From contig CAIIXF020000007.1 of the NCBI GenBank assembly GCA_903813345.2, forward strand, positions 15,110,714-15,174,713: a stretch of 64,000 nucleotides of DNA. The letters run 5' to 3'. This DNA is from Owenia fusiformis (taxonomy: Eukaryota > Annelida > Polychaeta > Sabellida > Oweniidae). The notes below the pieces were generated by a model, which saw only the letters and a program-made list of their open reading frames with translations, searched no databases and was not told where the DNA came from. Shown here piece by piece: positions 23,335 to 35,895 of the stretch. A program made the translations under genes and the position numbers. Numbering within the stretch: the stretch's first letter is position 1; each line of letters opens with the position of its first letter.

Positions 23335-25449
23335 TGAATTAGGACCATCCACATCCACATGCAGATATTCATGCTCTCTGAATGTCATTAAACATGGGAA
23401 ACCTGTGTAGTGCCCAGTCAGGGAGTGAGGAGGAGCCCCTTACTCCCTCCCAGGAGAACCTACCAAAGATACCTGACCACCACAAGGTTGCCTTAGAGAC
23501 TCTAGCTCAGGAATCCATCAATAATAAAGATGTGCTGTCCCATACTAGGAACTCTGTAGAAGCTGATGACCTTGTGGTTGTTAATGATGTGAAGCCAATG
23601 TTGGCAGAAACTGGACTGCAGTGTGTGCTCCAAAGAATAGACAAAGTTGATCAAGTTAAACATAGATATCAGTTGAACAATAATGGTAAGATGGAAACAG
23701 ACACAAAACATCTGGGTAGCTCAAGCACTGAATGTAATACTGATACATTGACGAATCCTATAGATAGCAAGATTGAAGGACAAACTATAGCACCAGTGCA
23801 TAGATCAAAATATACTGCAGAACACGCATCAGTTTTGCATCACCCTTCAGGTACTTCAGCTATGCCCTCTACATCAAGTCAAACTGAGTCTAGTTTTATC
23901 CATGAAGGAATCAAACATCAAGTTGAAGTTACAATGGAGACAGGTCCTGAGAAGAATACCATTGTCAATAGCATAATATCTGAGACACTTATGAAAGACA
24001 ATGAATATTGGTCCAGTGGTGGTCCTAGTTCCGAATTCATGCCACAACCTTCCTTGCCACAAAATGCATCTAATAGCAATGTAAAAGAAAATAAAACTGT
24101 TAAAGAGGCACAGAATAATGTAGATAATATGGACACTTCTGGTGATAGCATGGATCCATTTACTCATTGGAGGGTAGCAGGCGAGGCCCTAAGGAGAGCA
24201 CTCAGAGAATATGAAGTTGAAACTACAACATCCAATAATTCAACCTCTTCCATTCCAACTCTAGTAAGCCCAGGAGAGGACCCGATGAATGCCATGTTAG
24301 AGGACTATAACAAAACACGGGACAATGTTCCATCCACAAGTGCAATAAACAATAGTATCAATGCGCTCCCTCGATCAGTAGCTGATATTGTCAACCAGCA
24401 TGATTTGCAAATTAGAAAGCAAGAGAAACGTGCCAAAGCTAATAAAAATAAGGGATCTAAAAGGCATTCCACGACAGAGCAAACATGCACACCTAGACCT
24501 GTCTCATATTACAAGGACTTGATCAAGAGATTCAAGGGAGAAGAGAGCTCCAATTCCAGTGAGAAACCCTGCAGAAATGAGTGCATGTCATCGACATGTA
24601 ACAAAAGAGGAGAAAAAGTGCCAAGAAATGTACAAGATGCTTCAAGTAGTGATGACGAACTTTACTTAAGGAAACCAAAGCATCAAAAATTATCAACAAA
24701 ACATAAACCAAAGCTGAAAAAATCTAGTCAAAACAACATAGTAAGTGCACCATCGATGTCCAGTAATGGGTTCTATACCAGTGCTCTAAGAGATAACTCC
24801 ATACTAAATGGTATAGCTATACCTGATGATCCAAAAACAAAAAGAATGAAACAAATGGCAGAGAATGGGTTTTACACAAGCTCTCTGAAGGACAGTGCAA
24901 TATTATCTGGTATATCAGAACCAGATAATTCTCCTAGACATGTGCCAAAACTTAAAGGTGCTAAGAAACATACAACTGGTATTAAGAGTAGCAAACAGCC
25001 AGTTAAGAGATCATTGGAAGAGAGGGAAGCATCTAAATATAATAACACTTGTGAATGTGATAGTCATGACTCAGATGATGAACCCTGTCCACAACTTGTG
25101 TCTTCTTCTTGTGAGTCAGGCATTAATCCAGCAGTACACAGTCGCACAGTATTAGCTCAAGAGAATTCACATTGTCATCATAAAGTGAAACATAGAAAAG
25201 GCAAGTCAGCCAAATCATCCACATCCGGTTTATCAAAAAGGACATCATATGTATGTGGACAATACGATAACCAAAATATGTCAAGAAAACATTCTCAGGA
25301 GGCTTACAAGGCAGCTTTAGATACAGAGAGAGATGCACTTGATGAGCATAAGGCCCATACAGAGAAAAGGCTCACCAGGCACCAATGTCAGGCTGGATTT
25401 TCTCTTGAACTGCCTTCTACTCACACAGGGAGAGGAAAACAGTCTGCAA
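23335..25449 (+). CDS. RING gene exon 1 (first coding exon, long)
   Basis: The acceptor TTTATTTCAG ends at 23334, so an untranslated exon lies upstream. Coding starts at 23394 (MGNLCSAQSG) or 23382 (MSLN first). It ends at 25449 before GTAAGT, phase 1. It is 685 codons of low-complexity polar sequence with no known fold. A duplicated motif NGFYTSALRDNSILNGI / NGFYTSSLKDSAILSGI lies at residues about 458-474 and 491-507. Lys/Arg-rich patches (KRAKANKNKGSKRH) could act in nuclear localisation. Confidence 0.85.
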
Positions 25450-28400
25450 GTAAGTAGAGTTGCCACATAATCCCTTATAATATGTTATAATGTTATTAGT
25501 GTACAATTATTGACCTGTCCAGAGGTTGCCTGTTAAAAAACTTCAATATATGACAAGTATACCAAAACATTGGTTCATGGAAGCCTATCTATAGTTTTTA
25601 TTTACATTATTAACCTGTCCAGAGGTTGCCTGTTATACCAAAACTGTGCTTCATAGAAACTAATCTGTAGTTGTTATTTTCATTAGGGAGAAGACACTCA
25701 GAGAGTGAGAGTGATTCCATACCATTCCTAGATGAAAGCTCAGCTGACCAGTCACACCCTCCAGATACAAATGAGAGTATGCCTGGTAAGTGTAATGAGA
25801 GAATACCTGTTCAGTGTAATGACAGTATGCTTGGTAAGTGTAATGACAGAATGCCTGTTAAGTGTAGTCACAGTATATCTGGTAAGTGTTATCACAATAT
25901 GCCTGGTAAGTGTAACGGACATGCCTGATAAGTGTAATGGACATGCCTGATAAGTATAATGACAGGATGCCTAGAAAGTATAATGACAGTATGGCTGGTA
26001 AGTGTAATGACTGAATGCCTATTCAGTGTAATGACAGTGTGGCTGGTAAGTGAAATGACAGAATGCTTGGTAAGTGTAATGACAGTATGGCTGGTAAGTG
26101 TAATGACTGAATGCCTGTTCAGTGTAATGACAGTGTGGCTGGTAAGTGTAATGACTGAATGCCTGTTCAGTGTAATGACAGTATGGCTGGTAAGTGTAAT
26201 GACTGAATGCCTATTCAGTGTAATGACAGTGTGGCTGGTAAGTGTAATGACTGAATGCCTGTTCAGTGTAATGACAGTATGGCTGGTAAGTGTAATGACT
26301 GAATGCCTGTTCAGTGTAATGACAGTATGACTGGTAAGTGTAATGACAGTATGGCTGGTAAGTGTAATGACAGTTTGGCTGGTAAGTGTAATGACAGTAT
26401 GGCTGGTAAGTGTAATGACAGTATGGCTGGCAAGTGTAATGATTGTATGCCTGGTAAGTATAATGACAGTATGGCTGGTAAGTGTAATGACAGTATGGCT
26501 GGTTAGTGTAATGACAGTATGGCTGGCAAGTGTAATGACTGAATGCCTGTTCAGTGTAATGACAGTATGCCTGATAAGTATAATGACAGGATGCCTGGTA
26601 AGTGTAATGACAGTTTGGCTGGTAATTGTAATGACAGTATGGCTGGTAAGTGTAATGACTGAATGCCTGTTCAGTGTAATGACAGTATGCCTGATAAGTA
26701 TAATGACAGTATGACTGGTAAGTGTAATGACTGAATGCCTGTTCAGTGTAATGACAGTATGGCTGGTAAGTGTAATGACAGTGTGGCTGGTAAGTGTAAT
26801 GACAGTATGCCTGTTCAGTGTAATGACAGTATGGCTGGTAAGTGTAATGACAGTATGACTGGTAAGTGTAATGACAGTATGGCTGGTAAGTGTAATGACA
26901 GTATGCCTGTTCAGTGTAATGACAGTATGGCTGGTAAGTGTAATGACAGTATGACTGGTAAGTGTAATGACTGAATGCCTGATAAGTATAATGACAGTAT
27001 GACTGGTAAGTGTAATGACTGAATGCCTGGTAAGTGTAATCACAGTATGGCTGGTAAGTGTAATGACAGTATGACTGGTAAGTGTAATGACAGTATGCCT
27101 GGTAAGTGTAATGACAGTATGACTGGTAAGTGTAATGATAGTATGGCTGGTAAGTGTAATGACTGAATGCCTGTTCAGTGTAATGACAGTATGCCTGATA
27201 AGTATAATGACAGTATGACTGGTAAGTGTAATGGCTGAATGCCTGGTAAGTGTAATGACAGTATGGCTGGTAAGTGTAATGACAGTATGACTGGTAAGTG
27301 TAATGACAGTATGCCCGGTAAGTGTAATGACAGTATGACTGGTAAGTGTAATGACAGTATGGCTGGTAAGTGTAATGACAGTATGCCTGGTAAGTGTAAT
27401 GACAGTGTGGCTGGTAAGTGTAATGACAGTATGCCTGTTCAGTGTAATGACAGTATGGCTGGTAAGTGTAATGACAGTATGACTGGTAAGTGTAATGACT
27501 GAATGCCTGTTCAGTGTAATGACAGTATGGCTGGTAAGTGTAATGACAGTATGCCTGTTCAGTGTAATGACAGTATGGCTGGTAAGTGTAATGACAGTAT
27601 GACTGGTAAGTGTAATGACTGAATGCCTGATAAGTATAATGACAGTATGACTGGTAAGTGTAATGACTGAATGCCTGGTAAGTGTAATCACAGTATGGCT
27701 GGTAAGTGTAATGACAGTATGACTGGTAAGTGTAATGACAGTATGCCTGGTAAGTGTAATGACAGTATGACTGGTTAGTGTAATGACAGTATGGCTGGTA
27801 AGTGTAATGACTGAATGCCTGTTCAGTGTAATGACAGTATGGCTGGTGAGTGTAATGACTGAATGCCTGTTCAGTGTAATGATAGTATGGCTGGTAAGTG
27901 TAATGACTGAATGCCTGTTCAGTGTAATGACAATATGGCTGGTGAGTGTAATGACTGAATGCCTGTTCAGTGTAATGACAGTATGCCTGATAAGTTTAAT
28001 GACAGTATGCCTGATAAGTATAATGACAGTATGACTGGTAAGTGTAATGACAGTATGGCTGGTAAGTGTAATGACAGTATGGCTGGTAAGTGTAATGACA
28101 GTATGCCTGGTAAGTGTAATGACAGTATGGCTGGTAAGTGTAATGACAGTATGGCTGGTAAGTGTAATGACAGTATGGCTGGTAAGTGTAATGACAGTAT
28201 GCCTGGTAAGTGTAATGACAGTATGCCTGATAAGTGTAATGACAGTATGGCTGGTAAGTGTAATGACAGTATGGCTGGTAAGTGTAATGACAGTATGCCT
28301 GGTAAGTGTAATGACAGTATGGCTGGTAAGTGTAATGACAGTATGGCTGGTAAGTGTAATGACAGTATGGCTGGTAAGTGTAATGACAGTATGGCTGGTA

Positions 28401-31400
28401 AGTGTAATGACAGTATGCCTGGTAAGTGTAATGACAGTATGCCTGGTAAGTGTAATGACAGTATAGCTGGTAAGTGTAATGACAGTATGACTGGTAAGTG
28501 TAATGACAGTATGGCTGGTAAGTGTAATGACAGTATGGCTGGTAAGTGTAATGACAGTATGCCTGGTAAGTGTAATGACAGTATGGCTGGTAAGTGTAAT
28601 GACAGTATGGCTGGTAAGTGTAATAACAGTGTGGCTGGTAAGTGTAATGACTGAATGCCTGGTAAGTGTAATGACAGTATGCCTGGTAAGTGTAATGACA
28701 GTATGGCTGGTAAGTGTAATGACAGTATGACTGGTAAGTGTAATGACAGTATGGCTGGTAAGTGTAATGACAGTATGACTGGTAAGTGTAATGACAGTAT
28801 GGCTGGTAAGTGTAATGACAGTATGGCTGGTAAGTGTAATGACAGTATGGCTGGTAAGTGTAATGACAGTATGGCTGGTAAGTGTAATGACAGTGTGGCT
28901 GGTAAGTGTAATGACTGAATGCCTGGTAAGTGTAATGACAGTGTGACTGGTAAGTGTAATGACAGTATGGCTGGTAAGTGTAATGACAGTATGGCTGGTA
29001 AGTGTAATGACAGTATGCCTGGTAAGTGTAATGACAGTATGGCTGGTAAGTGTAATGACAGTATGACTGGTAAGTGTAATGACAGTATGGCTGGTAAGTG
29101 TAATGACAGTATGGCTGGTAAGTGTAATGACAGTATGGCTGGTAAGTGTAATGACAGTATGGCTGGTAAGTGTAATGACAGGATGCCTAGTCAGTGTAAA
29201 TACTCAATACCTGATAAGTGTAATGACAATATGCCTGGAAAGTCTTATTGTTTATATTTTAATGGCAGTATGCCTGGTCTTAGAACCATATTCTTTAGAT
29301 TTAGCATATTAGCAGTAACATGTAATTGCAGTATAATTTGAAGACTTATATGAGATGTCGAAAGACAGAGAAGAGAATATTAAAACTGACTGATGATCAT
29401 AATACATGTACAGGGTGTCCCGAAAGTATGGGGCCCCCCCTAGGCAGACATATACCAGTGTTGTCATAGTATGTGTCATATATCATTTTAATGCTTATCC
29501 AAAGTTACATTGATTTGCCAAGTATCATGGTTCAACTCTCAAATGTGAAAAAATTACAGGCATTTCAAAATTTAGTGTTTGGTCAAAATTAAGTTCAATT
29601 TTACACCAAATCAATAGTCAAAGTGTCCTCCCGGGCAATCTAAACAGCAGCAATTCTTTTCGGGTCGGATAGATATTGAGTTGGAAAAAGAGAACGGTGA
29701 GGGTAGAAACTCTAAGGAAACTCTTCTAAAGTGCCTTAACAGGTTTTAAGAGGGTTATAAAATTCCACACCCCTATTTAAAGGGCTTTTAAGGTCATATC
29801 TGAAAATAATTACTGCTGTTAACATGGCCAAGGGGGGACTCATTGACTTGTAATGTTGTGTGAAATTGAACTTTATTTTGACAAAACACTAACTTTTAAA
29901 ATGACTGTAACTTTTTCCCATATGGGAGTTAAACCATGATACTTGGCAAATCAATGTAACTTTGGATAAGCTTTAAAATGATATATGACATATACTATGA
30001 GGACACTGGAATACCTCTGCCTAGGGGGGGCCCCATACTTTCGGGACACCCTGTATAAGTACAGAGTTCATTTTTTGACATACACTGTACATAATCATAT
30101 ACATGTACTGTACCATTAGAGTTTTTTATTGCTTGAATTTAGATCTCATCAACAGTACAAGTGGGGATGATTCACTGGCAGAACAGCAGCACGACCCCTT
30201 TGAGCCTAATGCATCTGACTTTGAGGCCCTGCCCGATCTAGTCTCTAGTGATTCTACACACTATTCTGACTCTGGGGAAGTGCACTTCTCTGAACCTGAA
30301 GAGATTCCTGGCTTAGAGTCATTAGATGAGGTATGGATTACACAAGGATTTTATGGTTGTTACATATCTTTCTAGAATTATCAGACTTTTCTCTGTTCAG
30401 TAGAATAAAATCCATTTGAAATTGACAAATGATAATACATATTGTTATAGTCTCTAACTTCATGTGGACGGTGTTAGGCATTTGTGTTCAGCATCCTGTG
30501 CTCGAAGTTCAGTGTCTGTAACAAATAGCATGTGGTGACATTTTGCATGATAATGCCTTGTATTCGCCTGACACCTGTACTATAGACTTAATACAAGATT
30601 ATCATGTTATATATTTTCAGGATTGTGAGAGTGGTGGAAACGAGGATGCTGATGATGAATTTGAATGTGAATGTTCCCTTTGTGTGCAGCAACGTAGACT
30701 TACACATTGTGAGTTAATAACTGTCAACTAATAGAGGGATTTTACATCATAACAATTTGCCTTAACTTATCTGTATCCATAAAATTTTATTAAAATGAAA
30801 GTTTTCCAGGATTTTGTATATGCAAACATGCGCTCCTATATGTCTTGAATTTCAACCTTTGTCACATTAGAGAGACTTAATAGTTTAATGTACCTCATAT
30901 CAGTAAAATTATTTACAATCAAACACCTTTTGGGAAAATCTGATTTGTCGATAAATGATTGACATGATTGTCTATACTTTTTTATAATAGATATTTATTA
31001 CCACCATGTTTTGTGATTAGAATGGTGGTTGATGTTGGCCGTCACTTTTTGCAATCTGTAGATACTCTCTCATAATAACCAGTTGCAATTATTACTTGTT
31101 TTAGCCATTTGCAAATACTTTGTGACATTTTGTATCATTTTGTCATGTTAATACCTTGTTTTAGCCACTCGCAATTACTTACCCATTTGAGACATTTGTG
31201 GCATTGTAATACCTCATGTTAATACCTTCTTTTAGCCACTCGCAATTACTTACCCATTTGAGACATTTGTGGCATTGTAATACCTCATGTTAATACCTTC
31301 TTTTAGCCACTCGCAATTACTTACCCATTTGAGACATTTGTGGCATTGTAATACCTCATGTTAATACCTTGTTTTAGCCACTCGCAATTACTTACCCATT

Positions 31401-34400
31401 TGAGACATTTGTGGCATTTTATTACCTCATGTTAATACCTTCTTTTAGCCACTCGCAATTACTTACCCATTTGAGACATTTGTGGCATTTTATTACCTCA
31501 TGTTAATACCTTGTTTTAGCCACTCGCAATTACTTACCCATTTGAGACATTTGTGGCATTTTATTACCTCATGTTAATACCTTGTTTTAGCCATGCATGA
31601 GTGGGAGACTGAGGAAGAGGAAGAAACTGTTGGTGCTGAAAGTGCCCCAAGCAGTGCCCCTAGTGAGCCTCAATCTGGTCTCAGGTATGAAACATGAGTG
31701 TCACATCTTGGACATTAGTCTCTGAACTGTAGAAATGATGCTGATATATCTAAATGACTCCAAAGTAGCTGTCATGGCCTTATTTCAATTTTCGATATTA
31801 AAATCTAACATGGGATGTACATGTATATGGAAGTGAATGATATGATGTTATAGGTACGACTCGGATGATGACTTCAATCCATTCCCATTCCTAAACTTCG
31901 GGGACCTGACCCCCCTCAACTTACTACTGCTGAGACAGGAGACGATGAGGCGTGATTTCCTCACCACAATGTTCCAAGTAAGTTGGAATATATTGAATAC
32001 TGTAGTATTTTCAAAATGTCTGCTACAATAAAATGGATGGATGGTTTGTTTTAGAAAGGTGCATTAATATAGGGAATTCAAGTTCAAAAATACTGAGACA
32101 AGACTTATAAAGAATGTCTTCAATGTAAACTGATAAGATTGTTTTGTTCCATGGCATATCTTAGTTTTGATTGATAGTGTGTATCACCCATGAATATAGC
32201 CCATCATTTGTAAAATCAGTCACAGTTGATACAGATAACAATACTTCACACGAAAACAATATTATACCACAAAGTAACAAGAAAAATCAGAAAAGAATTA
32301 CATTATATTAAATTTTGAAACTAATGTTAATTTTTCTCGTCATAATTCTTTATATTATAATTCTCATATATTATTCATTAAGTACATGTTTGAAGATTCG
32401 ATATGAAACAGTCCAGTATATTTTTGGAAGATATTTGGAGTTGTTTTTGAAAGATTTTCTGAGTCGTTTTTTAAATTCAAAGGCACTGAATTCTTTGCCG
32501 TCACGACTACTCAAGTAATTGCTGAAAATTGAATATATAATGTGTTAACCCAAATATTTATATATATATGATTATAATAAAACTTCAGAATGTGATATTC
32601 CAAATGACCAGTGTCTACCCTGATTTACTGGGAGATCAAGCTCCACCCCCTGCAACCAATGAAGACATGGAGAAGCTGCCAATCAAAGAGATTGACAAGT
32701 CTCTACTAGGTATGTACCTGCTTATGTGGATATAATTTATAAATGTGAACCACAATGGGGAAGGACCCATTTTATTTTTATTTCTCTTGGATTTTGTGAT
32801 CTTGCTATGAAATAATGGGGCTCAGATATGAGAAACAACAATACTCTTGTCATGATATCAATACCTTTACCTTAATTAAAGTTATATGCATTTTAGAAAT
32901 TAATTTTTGATGTCTCTGATTTTCAGACAAGGAAACATCCTGTTCAATCTGTCTCTGTGCATTTGAGTCTGGTGAGAAGGCCACAGAGCTGCCTTGTAAT
33001 CACATCTTCCACCCACTCTGTATCAAGGCATGGCTAGTCAAGGTAAATGAGATTGACATTGTGGTCTATTTTGACTTATTGAATATCCCAACGATTGAAA
33101 TTCAGGAGGGATATAGTGAAGCCCTCCATCAGTCTGTCCATCAGTCTGTCTGTCCGGAAGATAACTCAAATACTGGTTGACAAATTTCTTCATATTTGGT
33201 GGAAAGATGTATATTGGTGAATAGTTTTACGCAAGAAATTTTTTCAAGATGGCCGCCACTTTAAAAAAAAATGGTGGGAAAAATCTGTTTATCATGTTAA
33301 ACCAAAGTAATAAATATGAAAATTTGGTTGTATATTCACAACATCTATCTATTTCACATGTATTCTATCCAATGACTTTATCACACAGATTGCTATGAAA
33401 TCCTAGCAAATGAATGAGAAGCTGCCGTGGCTGTGCCTCCAATCTACAGGGTGTCAAATAAGTCTGTTATCCCCCTTAACTTGTTTAATTTAGATATAAC
33501 ACAAGGTTATTATATATCATCTTAAAGGGAATATTTAATTTGCTGATCACACACCAAATTTCAGAGCGATTGGTTGAATCCAAAAGTTTTTAGAGCACTT
33601 GATGAGTGATGTCCATATTTCACATTTTTGATAGTTTGTATGTTTCTCCCAAGCAGCTCAGACAGCCTCAATTCTACGAGGATACAATTCCAAAATGTTC
33701 ACAAACAGAGATATTGGTCTTTCCAGGCTTCTAAAAGCTTTCTTGATATTTTTGAGTAATGTTTCATGGCAATAAAGTTTCTCCTCTGGTTGATCTTCGA
33801 TTAATTTTCCGACCCTGTCCTTCAGAATTGCAGTATCAACTTTTCACTGTTCATTCACTACCCTTGTAATTTTACTTGCTTTGACATAATCGATGGTCAA
33901 CTTACAAGATGGTCAAACTTACAAGAAACATTGTAGCAATTTTATTAGAAAGTGTTCATTACTGCTTTAAAATGATATATGGGAAAGCATGACAACTTTA
34001 AAAGAAAAAAGTTAAGGGGGAGAACATACTTATTTGACGCCCTGTACATGTAAATGAGAGTACAGTGCATTTGAAGTTCTTGACAGTTCTTAGTTCATTT
34101 ATCTCCACACGTGAAAACTTTCCAAAATCAGGTAGTTGAAAAAGTAGACACCATTCAAACAAAGCTGCACTCTATCTAAATAATTGAAAATTAATCATGT
34201 TTTTAACTGCCTGGTTTTAAAAGGTTTAGAGGATGGGAGTACATTAGAGAGTAATAGCATCAGGGCACTCAGAGGGGTATTTTCCCTGATTTCGCATATT
34301 CTAAGATCTGAATTTTGATTTGAAAAATGATTGAACAATGGAAATTACCAAAAGGTTGAAATTAAATCTGAATCGAGAGCAGAAATGTTCATGATTACCA

Positions 34401-34744
34401 GGAAATAAAGTCATGGAATAAAAACTAAAAGGCATTTTTGCTTCATATTTATTCACCATATTCAGACTTAAAACTTAAAAGATATGTCTAAAATAAAAAA
34501 TTTCAATACATTATTTTTGATTCCTTCAAGATAATGTTTTAGCTTATGTTCAGCATGACACCACTTTAATTGAAGGATCGTTTAGTGCAAACGTTTAATA
34601 CAGCTACTTAGAGATTACTTATCATTGTTATTTATTCATTTATATTTCCAGTCTGGTACTTGTCCAACGTGTAGACACAAACTGACAACAGCAACAAGAG
34701 AGAGACCTCAACCAGACTTTGACTCCTGGCTAGGTCAATTATAG
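23335..34744 (+). CDS. Praja-like RING-H2 E3 ubiquitin-protein ligase, nine coding exons
   Basis: The RING-H2 domain binds a ubiquitin-charged E2 and transfers ubiquitin to substrates. The nine exons join without a phase conflict into about 992 residues, counted from ATG 23394. Residues 1-685 are hydrophilic, Ser/Lys-rich and probably disordered. An acidic region follows (exons 2-5), then a conserved-looking FNPFPFLNFGDLTPLNLLLL segment. The C-terminal RING is C929-x2-C932-x14-C947-x-H949-x2-H952-x2-C955-x10-C966-x2-C969. ATELPCNHIFH and WLVKSGTCPTCR match the Praja1/2 RING better than RNF115/126. The start at 23394 is favoured over 23382: A at -3 and G at +4, and it yields MGNLCS (myristoylation, with a possible palmitoylated Cys). 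Introns 2 and 8 carry transposons. Introns 1, 2 and 4 and the 3' flank carry tandem arrays. Confidence 0.85.
25500..25686 (+). repeat. Tandem duplication ending on the exon 2 acceptor
   Basis: Two copies of roughly 100 bp. Copy A starts at about 25510 and copy B at about 25612, each with ACCTGTCCAGAGGTTGCCTG and TACCAAAAC. Copy A ends TTTTTATTTACATTAT and copy B ends TTGTTATTTTCATTAG, the functional acceptor. The duplicated block therefore includes the intron 1 3' splice region; copy A has lost the AG. Confidence 0.7.
25687..25785 (+). CDS. RING gene exon 2
   Basis: Acceptor TTTCATTAG at 25686 and donor GTAAGT at 25786. 99 bases, phase 1 in and phase 1 out. Encodes the acidic, Ser-rich stretch RRHSESESDSIPFLDESSAD and on to NESMP. 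Its last 16 bases (AATGAGAGTATGCCTG) plus the donor are the first unit of the 24-bp array, so the exon's 3' end sits inside the minisatellite. Confidence 0.8.
25770..29243 (+). repeat. 24-bp minisatellite made of 5' splice sites (about 145 units)
   Basis: The period is exactly 24 bp over 3.47 kb, with few indels (one near 25915-25960). A typical unit is AATGACAGTATGGCTG followed by GTAAGTGT. The first unit is the genuine exon 2/intron 2 junction. Most units keep GGTAAGTG, a near-perfect match to U1 snRNA. A minority carry CTGTTCAGTG instead. Some have AATGACTGA, which puts a stop in the exon 2 frame. Local subpatterns of alternating unit types show higher-order duplication. Because 24 is a multiple of 3, long false reading frames (KCNDSMAG on plus, VITLTSHT on minus) appear. 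Confidence 0.95.
29411..30053 (-). mobile_element. CAGGGTGTCCC element, 643 bp, in intron 2
   Basis: The ends are CAGGGTGTCCCGAAAGTATG and its reverse complement, with TA on each side (29409-29410, 30054-30055). The inverted arms are about 200 bp, including matching ACTTGGCAAATCAATGTAAC blocks. TA duplications and CAGGGTGTC ends are typical of Tc1/mariner-like elements. The middle (about 29620-29690, minus strand) contains a decayed coding tail with DPKRIAAV, similar to the other copy's PRRIEAV. The element is non-autonomous. Confidence 0.8.
30143..30330 (+). CDS. RING gene exon 3
   Basis: Acceptor GAATTTAG at 30142 and donor GTATGG at 30331. 188 bases, phase 1 in and phase 0 out. Acidic: NSTSGDDSLAEQQHDPFEPN, then DFEALPDLVSSDSTHYSDSG and EVHFSEPEEIPGLESLDE. 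The phase fits the exon 2 donor across an intron of 4.36 kb, most of it minisatellite. Confidence 0.8.
30621..30708 (+). CDS. RING gene exon 4
   Basis: Acceptor TATTTTCAG and donor GTGAGT. 88 bases, phase 0 to phase 1. Encodes DCESGGNEDADDEFECECSL followed by CVQQRRLTH. The CECSLC cysteine cluster could bind metal or be structural. It is not part of the RING. Confidence 0.8.
31145..31590 (+). repeat. 71-bp tandem array of the exon 5 splice acceptor
   Basis: Six full periods of exactly 71 bp. Each contains ATGTTAATACCTT(G/C)TTTTAG followed by CCA. AG dinucleotides fall at 31164, 31235, 31306, 31377, 31448, 31519 and 31590; the last is the true acceptor of exon 5. After CCA the array continues CTCGCAATTACTTACCCATT, whereas the exon reads CCATGCATGAG. 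A more diverged copy precedes it (TTGTTTTAGCCATTTGCAA near 31096). Confidence 0.92.
31591..31684 (+). CDS. RING gene exon 5
   Basis: Acceptor CTTGTTTTAG at 31590 and donor GTATGA after CTCAG. 94 bases, phase 1 to phase 2. Encodes MHEWETEEEEETVGAESAPS and SAPSEPQSGL, an acidic linker. Its acceptor is the last copy of the 71-bp array. Confidence 0.78.
31854..31977 (+). CDS. RING gene exon 6
   Basis: Acceptor TGTTATAG and donor GTAAGT. 124 bases, phase 2 to phase 0. Encodes RYDSDDDFNPFPFLNFGDLT and PLNLLLLRQETMRRDFLTTM FQ. This hydrophobic and acidic segment is higher in GC than its surroundings and looks conserved, so it is probably a folded or protein-binding part. Confidence 0.82.
32589..32709 (+). 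CDS. RING gene exon 7
   Basis: Acceptor AACTTCAG and donor GTATGT. 121 bases, phase 0 to phase 1. Encodes NVIFQMTSVYPDLLGDQAPP, then PATNEDMEKLPIKEIDKSLL. The pattern of a short helix followed by KLP...I, just before the RING, is common in Praja/RNF-type ligases. Confidence 0.82.
32927..33042 (+). CDS. RING gene exon 8 (most of the RING-H2)
   Basis: Acceptor GATTTTCAG and donor GTAAAT. 116 bases, phase 1 to phase 0. Encodes CSICLCAFESGEKATELPCN, then HIFHPLCIKAWLVK. This supplies the first six zinc ligands (C, C, C, H, H, C) and the tryptophan typical of E2-binding RINGs. Confidence 0.92.
33447..34044 (-). mobile_element. CAGGGTGTC element, 598 bp, in intron 8, with decayed transposase-like tail
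   Basis: Ends CAGGGTGTCAAATAAGTCTG and its near reverse complement (terminal GACGCCCTG) are flanked by TA (33445-33446, 34045-34046). On the minus strand, about 33640-33870 reads as a mostly open stretch (VGKLIEDQPEEKLYCHETLL ... ELYPRRIEAV) with in-frame stops. This looks like the C-terminal remnant of a Tc1/mariner-class transposase. The identification rests on termini and general pattern, not on a database match. Confidence 0.7.
34652..34744 (+). CDS. RING gene exon 9 (last coding exon)
   Basis: Acceptor TATATTTCCAG at 34651; 30 codons and stop TAG at 34742-34744. Encodes SGTCPTCRHKLTTATRERPQ followed by PDFDSWLGQL. It supplies the last two zinc cysteines (CPTC). The final codons and the stop merge into the first unit of the 52-bp array. 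Confidence 0.9.
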   Translation, partial: SGTCPTCRHKLTTATRERPQPDFDSWLGQL

Positions 34745-35895
34745 TTTTTGTGTGATCCAGGTTTATGACTGGCAAGGTCAACTTAAGTCATCATGTGATC
34801 CAGCTATAAACAGATAGTGACTGGCTATATAACCTATAGTCATTGTGTGATCCAACTAAAAACAGATAGTGACTGGCTATATAAGCTATAGTCATTGTGT
34901 GATCCAACTAAAACAGATCATGACTGACTATATAACATATAGTCATTATGTGATCCAACTAAAACAGATAGTGACTGGCTATATAAGCTATAGTCATTGT
35001 GTGATCCAACTGAAAACAGATAGTGACTGGCTATATACTAGTAAGCTATAGTCATTGTGTGATCCAACTAAAACAGATCATGACTGACTATATAACCTAT
35101 AGTCATTATGTGATCCAACTGAAAACAGATTATGACTGCCTATATAAGCTATAGTCATTGTGTGATCCAACTAAAAACAGATAGTGACTGGCTATATAAG
35201 CTATAGTCATTGTGTGATCCAACTAAAACAGATAGTGACTGGCTATATAACCTATAGTCATTGTGTGATCCAACTAAAAACAGATCATGACTGACTATAT
35301 AACCTATAGTCATTGTGTGATCCAACTGAAAACAGATTATGACTGCCTATATAAGCTATAGTCATTGTGTGATCCAACTAAAAACAGATAGTGACTGTCT
35401 ATATAAGCATTAGTCATTGTGTGATCCAGTTGACAGATTATGACTGGCTGTATAACCTATAGTCATTGTGTGATCCAACTGAAAACAGATTATGACTGCC
35501 TGTATAAGCTATAGTCATTGTGTGATCCAACTAAAAACAGATAGTGACTGGCTATATAAGCTATAGTCATTGTGTGATCCAGTTGACAGATTATGACTGG
35601 TTGGGTCAATTAAAGTCATTGTGTGATCCATCTATAGACAGATTGTGACTAGTTAGCTATATAAGCTATAGTCATTATATGATCCAGTTGACAGATTATG
35701 ACTGGCTAGGTTAGGTCAACTATAGTCATTGTGTGATTTAGCTGCAGACAGATTATGACTAGCTATATAGGCTATTCATTGTGTGATCAAACTAAATACA
35801 AATTATGACTGGCTATATTAGCTAGTCAATGTGTGATTCAACTATAGACAGATTATGGCTGGCTAAATCAGCTGTAGTCATTGTGTAATTACACT
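34721..35895 (+). repeat. 52-bp tandem array beginning at the stop codon (3'UTR)
   Basis: About 22 copies of a 52-bp unit with core GCTATAGTCATTGTGTGATC, then CAACTAAAAACAGATAGTGA and CTGGCTATATAA. The first copy overlaps coding sequence: GACTCCTGGCTAGGTCAATT ATAG then TTTTTGTGTGATCCAG. The middle is homogeneous and both ends are degenerate. It probably forms much of the proximal 3'UTR. Confidence 0.9.

Follow-up and report, generated by a model that had tools for sequence, protein, structure and literature searches.

A 145-copy tandem array at the probable exon 2 donor of a RING gene in Owenia fusiformis

When a stretch of DNA that spans a splice junction has been repeated in tandem more than a hundred times, is the result a regulatory device or an accident that the gene has tolerated? 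The question is raised by a 64,000-nucleotide stretch of the genome of the annelid Owenia fusiformis (contig CAIIXF020000007.1, positions 15,110,714 to 15,174,713 of the forward strand; the whole stretch is called the window below), in which 145 copies of a 24-bp unit lie at the boundary between exon 2 and intron 2 of a Praja-like RING-H2 gene. In all likelihood the array is a mirage, that is, a minisatellite that began when a short stretch across a splice junction was duplicated in tandem, with the first donor being the one used. As such it is probably a tolerated duplication accident and not a regulatory device, because it falls into a known class of repeat and because more arrays of this sort occur in the genome. 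The mechanism is ordinary and the kind of array is known, if little studied; its size, the pairing of donor and acceptor arrays in one gene, and signs of wide spread in the genome are what make it notable.

The array and the junction at which it starts

The donor-side array occupies positions 25770-29243 of the window on the + strand, as do all features below unless stated otherwise, and has the consensus AATGACAGTATGGCTGGTAAGTGT, in which 16 nt of exon tail are followed by 8 nt of intron start. Tandem Repeats Finder (TRF) gave a period of 24, 144.9 copies, 87% matches and a score of 5163, and a separate unit-by-unit alignment gave 145 units and one partial tail, with 142 of the 145 being exactly 24 bp long and free of gaps. 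A preliminary description of this DNA had reported a ladder of about 145 tandem units, most of them keeping the donor word, and both statements hold: GGTAAGTG is retained in 102 units, GGTAAGT is present in 103, and 109 have GT at the donor position. Elsewhere in the window, GGTAAGT occurs once on the + strand and six times on the - strand. Exact matches to the 16-mer GTAAGTGTAATGACAG number 75 across the 498-Mb genome and fall without exception inside the 24-bp array; its reversed form has none.

Sequence variation is unevenly distributed along the array. Its edges are diverged, with units 1-9 and 143-145 each 2-8 bases off the consensus and units 7 and 8 also gapped, while the interior is made up of a small number of unit types that recur, with little variation across units 96-142. 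A block repeat at an offset of 27 units was found, in which units 47-56 equal units 74-83 (10/10 identical, 8/10 being non-consensus units). GT has been lost in 36 units, 20 of them within units 1-50, 13 within units 51-97 and three within units 98-145. On the minus strand, the array contains an open frame of 1103 residues (25892-29203), which is no surprise for a 24-bp unit whose length is divisible by 3 and which has no stop in that frame.

The gene in which the array lies was modelled with nine exons and 996 codons (23382-34746). The exons are placed at 23382-25449, 25687-25785, 30143-30330, 30621-30708, 31591-31684, 31854-31977, 32589-32709, 32927-33042, and, for the ninth, from 34652 up to the stop codon (the segment was read as far as 34746). 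The frame is open across all eight GT-AG introns and closes with a single terminal stop, and the product matches zf-RING_2 (E 2.1e-15), with Praja-1 as the best match in PDB (2l0b, E 1.2e-14). Exon 2, of 99 nt, is in phase both with exon 1 and with exon 3, which supplies the acceptor of intron 2; the final 16 nt of exon 2 make up the exonic portion of unit 1 of the array. The junction reads ATGCCTG|GTAAGTGT at 25785/25786, and its donor (25786-25793), the putative authentic 5' splice site of intron 2, belongs to unit 1. The in-phase model thus makes it very probable that the array begins at the real exon 2 donor and that the 24-bp unit spans the exon/intron boundary, as the preliminary description had proposed in calling the first unit the actual exon 2/intron 2 junction.

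Downstream donors and U1 pairing

Would the additional donors be of any use to the gene? Exon 2 was extended to each downstream array donor and then joined to exons 3 and 4. A frame without a premature stop was obtained only from the donors of units 1, 3, 5 and 6, and the other 105 of the 109 GT-bearing units led to a premature stop. The 24-bp unit preserves the reading frame until two 22-bp units disrupt it from unit 7 on, and units 2 and 4 already lack GT. Units 3-6 (25818-25913), therefore, include every downstream donor from which the frame runs on stop-free, namely those of units 3, 5 and 6, and units 7-9 (25914-25981) comprise the two frame-shifting units 7 and 8 and three dead donors, with the frame of exon 2 stopping at 25926-25928. 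The suggestion that the ladder could make donor choice noisy is a possible one, with products in frame expected from units 1, 3, 5 and 6 and an early stop from the remaining 105 units that have GT; amphioxus mirages are, according to passages of their reports, spliced regularly (PMC3087553, PMC3902484).

Pairing was computed against the 5' end of U1. The seven contiguous paired bases of the preliminary description were recovered at the array donor, where pairing is unbroken from -1 to +6, with a G-U wobble at +7 and a further pair at +8. The predicted duplex of the first array donor has -11.0 kcal/mol, compared with a range of -5.5 to -8.1 kcal/mol among the seven remaining donors of the RING gene. 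Conservation within the unit does not follow this strength: the mean consensus frequency of the donor core (unit positions 16-22) is 0.937 versus 0.928 elsewhere (permutation P=0.50), and 10 of the 24 cyclic windows of the unit, the core included, are conserved at least as much as the core. Intron 2 contains no AATAAA and one ATTAAA (at 29379). Neither the cryptic poly(A) signals expected for telescripting by U1 nor selection on the U1 site was found in the intron and the core, respectively. The array looks neutral in function and unlike a selected U1 platform, and the proposal that it acts as a U1 sink or protects the intron from premature polyadenylation finds no footing in these counts or in the 36 units that lack GT.

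Junction arrays elsewhere in the gene and the genome

Is the exon 2 junction alone in having been multiplied? The same gene has a second array, in intron 4 (31143-31593; 71-bp unit, 6.4 copies), in which seven copies of ..CCTTSTTTTAG|CCA.. are spaced 71 bp apart and the last is joined to exon 5, which begins at that copy in the gene model (31591-31684). The RING gene, therefore, has two such arrays, one on the donor side in intron 2 that starts from its junction copy and one on the acceptor side in intron 4 that ends with its own, and the modelled coding sequence is intact despite both. The + strand of the acceptor-side array also carries six copies of ACTTACC, an antisense donor-like word.

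Sixteen further arrays were fetched from the genome, selected by three copies of GGTAAGT (seven arrays, among the matches listed, which cover C1 to 58.8 Mb) or of CAGGTAAGT (ten arrays, the whole list), one array being common to both. Peptide homology ahead of the first donor (E<1e-3) was found in six of the 16, a fraction that is biased upwards because the arrays were selected for a donor motif. The six are Ssl1, which we take to be GTF2H2 (L012, E 6.7e-27, the match ending 18 residues short of the donor); WDR35 (L014, E 1.2e-11); DCAF17 (L018, E 2.7e-4, below the Pfam cut-off); PF15874 (L019, E 8.1e-9); PP2A B56 (L024, E 1.2e-10); and an ovoA-like (OvoA) exon end (L020, E 4.9e-19). In the first five of these the array starts at the end of the exon; in the last it starts 68 bp after the donor, and its unit aligns to the junction with a score of 34 versus 23 for the best of 1,000 shuffles. 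That L018 and L020 fall under curated whole-protein cut-offs is expected, because each query was one exon.

Just three of the 16 donor-side arrays counted, the RING-gene array among them, have a unit length divisible by 3, and the class is, thus, not kept in frame. An open frame of at least 100 nt lies upstream of 11 of 17 donor arrays, with donors picked by hand. The corresponding shares are 35% for GTRAGT sites (n=63; Mann-Whitney P=0.015) and 29% for GT sites (n=3,456; P=0.0008); this test is weak because the control loci also contain real donors. A second donor ladder of similar length to that of the RING gene was observed at L013 (G000:C1:58791800-58799800), where 96 copies of a 34-bp unit with 90 GGTAAGT follow a weakly neurolysin-like exon end.

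Arrays were also chosen by words other than the donor motifs: 24 were taken, 12 each by the words TGAATGG and CATTGAT. The TGAATGG set holds 12 of the 13 distinct arrays among the listed C1 matches, with a GGAT-type repeat at 28.93 Mb omitted and C2 matches unused; the CATTGAT set holds all 12 arrays among the matches listed (C1 to 21.0 Mb), including one for which TRF gave no row and which was counted as a miss (L059). Homology was sought, on the donor side, at the 12 of the 24 loci that have a seemingly usable frame up to the array edge, and the other 12 were counted as misses. An exon with homology stands at the array start in three of the 24: HDAC1 (L052, E 5.9e-16), ECHDC3 (L055, E 4.7e-6, with Pfam giving only 0.18) and ADAM17 (L062, E 0.0015, or 0.074 with a shorter piece, and no Pfam match). 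At L045, an open frame before GTGAGT was seen without any Pfam match.

By chance, 0.29 of the 24 would be expected to begin in this way, if 200,000 introns and a 30-bp seed are assumed (P=0.003; for a 60-bp seed, P=0.02). A true rate of 5% would give P=0.12 for three of 24. When L062 is set aside, two of 24 are left, for which P=0.034 with the 30-bp and 0.11 with the 60-bp seed. The two words contributed 2/12 (TGAATGG) and 1/12 (CATTGAT); TGAATGG ends in GG and may lean to donors, and CATTGAT has neither GT nor AG on either strand. These counts hint at a preference of arrays for junctions but do not prove it.

Enrichment of donor motifs among tandem triples was considered as a further indication and rejected: GGTAAGT triples number 604 versus 994 for the reversed motif, which speaks against an excess at junctions. 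TTTTCAG triples number 922 versus 180 for the reversed form and are largely dispersed repeats among the matches listed. From the listed C1 matches, eight array-like TTTTCAG loci were picked by eye, and homology was sought for five of them. It was found for one of the eight (L037, G000:C1:18534500-18537400), in which 34 copies of a 40-bp unit, with 18 exact TTTTCAG, run into a SMUG1-like exon whose match (E 3.8e-45) starts from the first residue past the last acceptor. The homology search gave no match for the TTTTCAG arrays L036, L038, L041 and L043. The consensus unit of L037 reads TTTTCAG|GTCAGT, so that an acceptor word and a donor-like word adjoin. A search of the genome for COX1, meant to reveal the mitochondrial code, gave no match, with eight of 14 controls detected.

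Origin of the array and its place among known systems

How might such an array arise without harm to the gene? A short stretch over the exon 2/intron 2 boundary would have been duplicated in tandem, seeding the minisatellite, and the copy adjoining exon 2 would have retained the true donor. If splicing uses this first donor, the protein would be unchanged and all further copies would fall within intron 2, where the array could expand freely and be made uniform through slippage and unequal exchange. The donors of the downstream units would then be by-products, only units 3, 5 and 6 being usable without an early stop. Exon 5 of the same gene probably presents the mirror image, with splicing to the last of the acceptor copies. 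A duplication that spans a junction would, in short, be tolerated because the first donor or the last acceptor is used and further growth is intronic, and these two premises would account for the position and phase of the array, the decay of its donors and the other cases in the genome.

Some observations weigh against this explanation. A search of the genome with exons 2-4 found no second copy (three matches, all at the RING-gene locus), which leaves no single-copy form for comparison, and the donor might have been recruited from an array that was already there. Among the 16 arrays selected by donor motifs, homology was weak in two (L013, neurolysin, E 0.032; L017, TSP_1, 0.024), and no convincing match was obtained for L016, L021, L023 and L026, with open frames of 162-546 nt (a coiled-coil match of L021, 0.045, is below the cut-off). 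No exon could be placed at a further four of the 16 (L015, L022, L025 and L027), and the homology search was run at none of them.

Capture of the donor from a minisatellite already present, whether intronic or coding, would make the array older than the junction; it would fit with units 1-6 being open in the frame of exon 2, and there is no outgroup for comparison. Such an origin is nonetheless improbable, as several unrelated arrays start at exon ends that match solved or curated families (WDR35, HDAC1, B56 and ECHDC3), and at those loci, therefore, the junction is older than the array. A working donor ladder resembling that of human IFI6, in which units 1, 3, 5 and 6 would all be used to give proteins differing by multiples of eight residues, is a less remote prospect, though still an unlikely one. 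It would draw on a 24-bp unit that keeps the frame, on units 3, 5 and 6 being open and in phase to exon 3, and on the use of two downstream repeats as donors that is described for IFI6 (PMC4526556); yet the early units 2 and 4 have no GT, units 7 and 8 shift the frame, almost all GT-bearing units (105 of 109) stop early, and in-frame units occur in only three of the 16 donor arrays counted. Selection of the array as a U1-binding platform, be it sink or shield, is very improbable indeed. The 102 units with GGTAAGTG and a predicted duplex that beats those of the gene's other seven donors are what such a platform would offer, but its donor core shows no excess conservation, a quarter of its units (36/145) are dead, and the intron it would shield has a single ATTAAA and no AATAAA.

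The remaining alternative concerns less this array than the class: with minisatellites as abundant as they are in this genome, some would land on splice sites without any preference. This is a serious possibility, if short of a probable one. GGTAAGT triples do not exceed those of the reversed motif, arrays selected by GGTAAGT are biased to real donors, and the case of the 24 arrays chosen by other motifs weakens when L062 is left out; against chance stands the full count of three in 24 that begin at exons with homology, where 0.29 was expected. The converse may be entertained tentatively, as a somewhat doubtful proposition, namely that in this annelid lineage, far from amphioxus, tandem duplication is concentrated at splice junctions, that donor and acceptor arrays make up a sizeable share of minisatellites, and that the junction itself, through co-transcriptional DNA structure or repair, favours duplication. 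If that were true, junction arrays would keep supplying alternative donors and new introns.

The human IFI6 minisatellite has a 12-bp unit in about 26 copies. It lies in exon 2 of the gene (also 6-16 or G1P3) and, like the array described here, places several potential donors between exons 2 and 3; two of its downstream repeat units are stated to serve as donors (PMC4526556), whereas units 3, 5 and 6 of the RING-gene array are candidate donors from sequence alone. The closer likeness is to the mirages of amphioxus, described in the relevant passages as minisatellite-like tandem duplications of exon/intron boundaries, both 5' and 3', which in Adh3 have units of 10-72 bp and unstable length and which in Adh3 and globins leave regular splicing undisturbed (PMC3087553); further cases are PGBD5 and troponin C (PMC3902484). 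As in those genes, a tandem array lies over an exon/intron boundary with copies of GT or AG inside, and the concerted evolution that is described for amphioxus, from which boundary units are excluded, has its counterpart in a homogenised interior and diverged edges. The RING-gene array is head-to-tail, has a unit that spans the boundary according to the gene model, and carries GT in many but not all copies. It differs from the amphioxus mirages in its 145 copies, in the occurrence of donor and acceptor arrays in one gene, and in its annelid host. The statement that no minisatellite grown from a donor had been described is, thus, contradicted by the amphioxus and IFI6 reports, as far as their passages go, and the array belongs to a known class.

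Other comparisons are looser. Splice-site sequence is also duplicated in tandem within genes in cases of intron gain from tandem arrays or internal duplications (Rogers 1989; Zhuo 2007; Gao and Lynch 2009, as cited in PMC3087553), but no new intron is seen here and the copies remain within an existing one. Human internal tandem repeats at exon-intron boundaries, in which repeat variation alters gene structure, are described as lying in recent segmental duplications (PMC2812944), whereas exons 2-4 of the RING gene were found at their own locus only. In an earthworm, minisatellites occur in intron 1 of metallothionein, and the passages of PMC12783039 are silent on whether they span a splice site. 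A literature search yielded, among the records listed, no report of such arrays outside amphioxus besides IFI6 and PMC2812944, which is weak evidence of absence, as most subscription journals were not covered.

The passages cited report mirages from a handful of genes in amphioxus. The 145-copy case, the acceptor array of the same gene and the clear cases at WDR35, B56, HDAC, ECHDC3 and other genes would show the class to be more widely spread among animal genomes. Arrays of this sort offer natural tests of how the spliceosome chooses the first among near-identical donors, and of intron growth or origin by tandem duplication.

Two other elements of the window lie close to these features. Downstream of the array, intron 2 contains an element of about 645 bp (29410-30054) with long terminal inverted repeats (ACAGGGTGTCCCGAAAGTATGGGGCC...), recognised by eye, which looks like a DNA transposon of the miniature inverted-repeat transposable element (MITE) type. 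Finally, 21 copies of a 52-bp unit (34786-35886) follow about 40 bp past the stop codon of the RING gene and, given this position, are perhaps transcribed in its 3' untranslated region.

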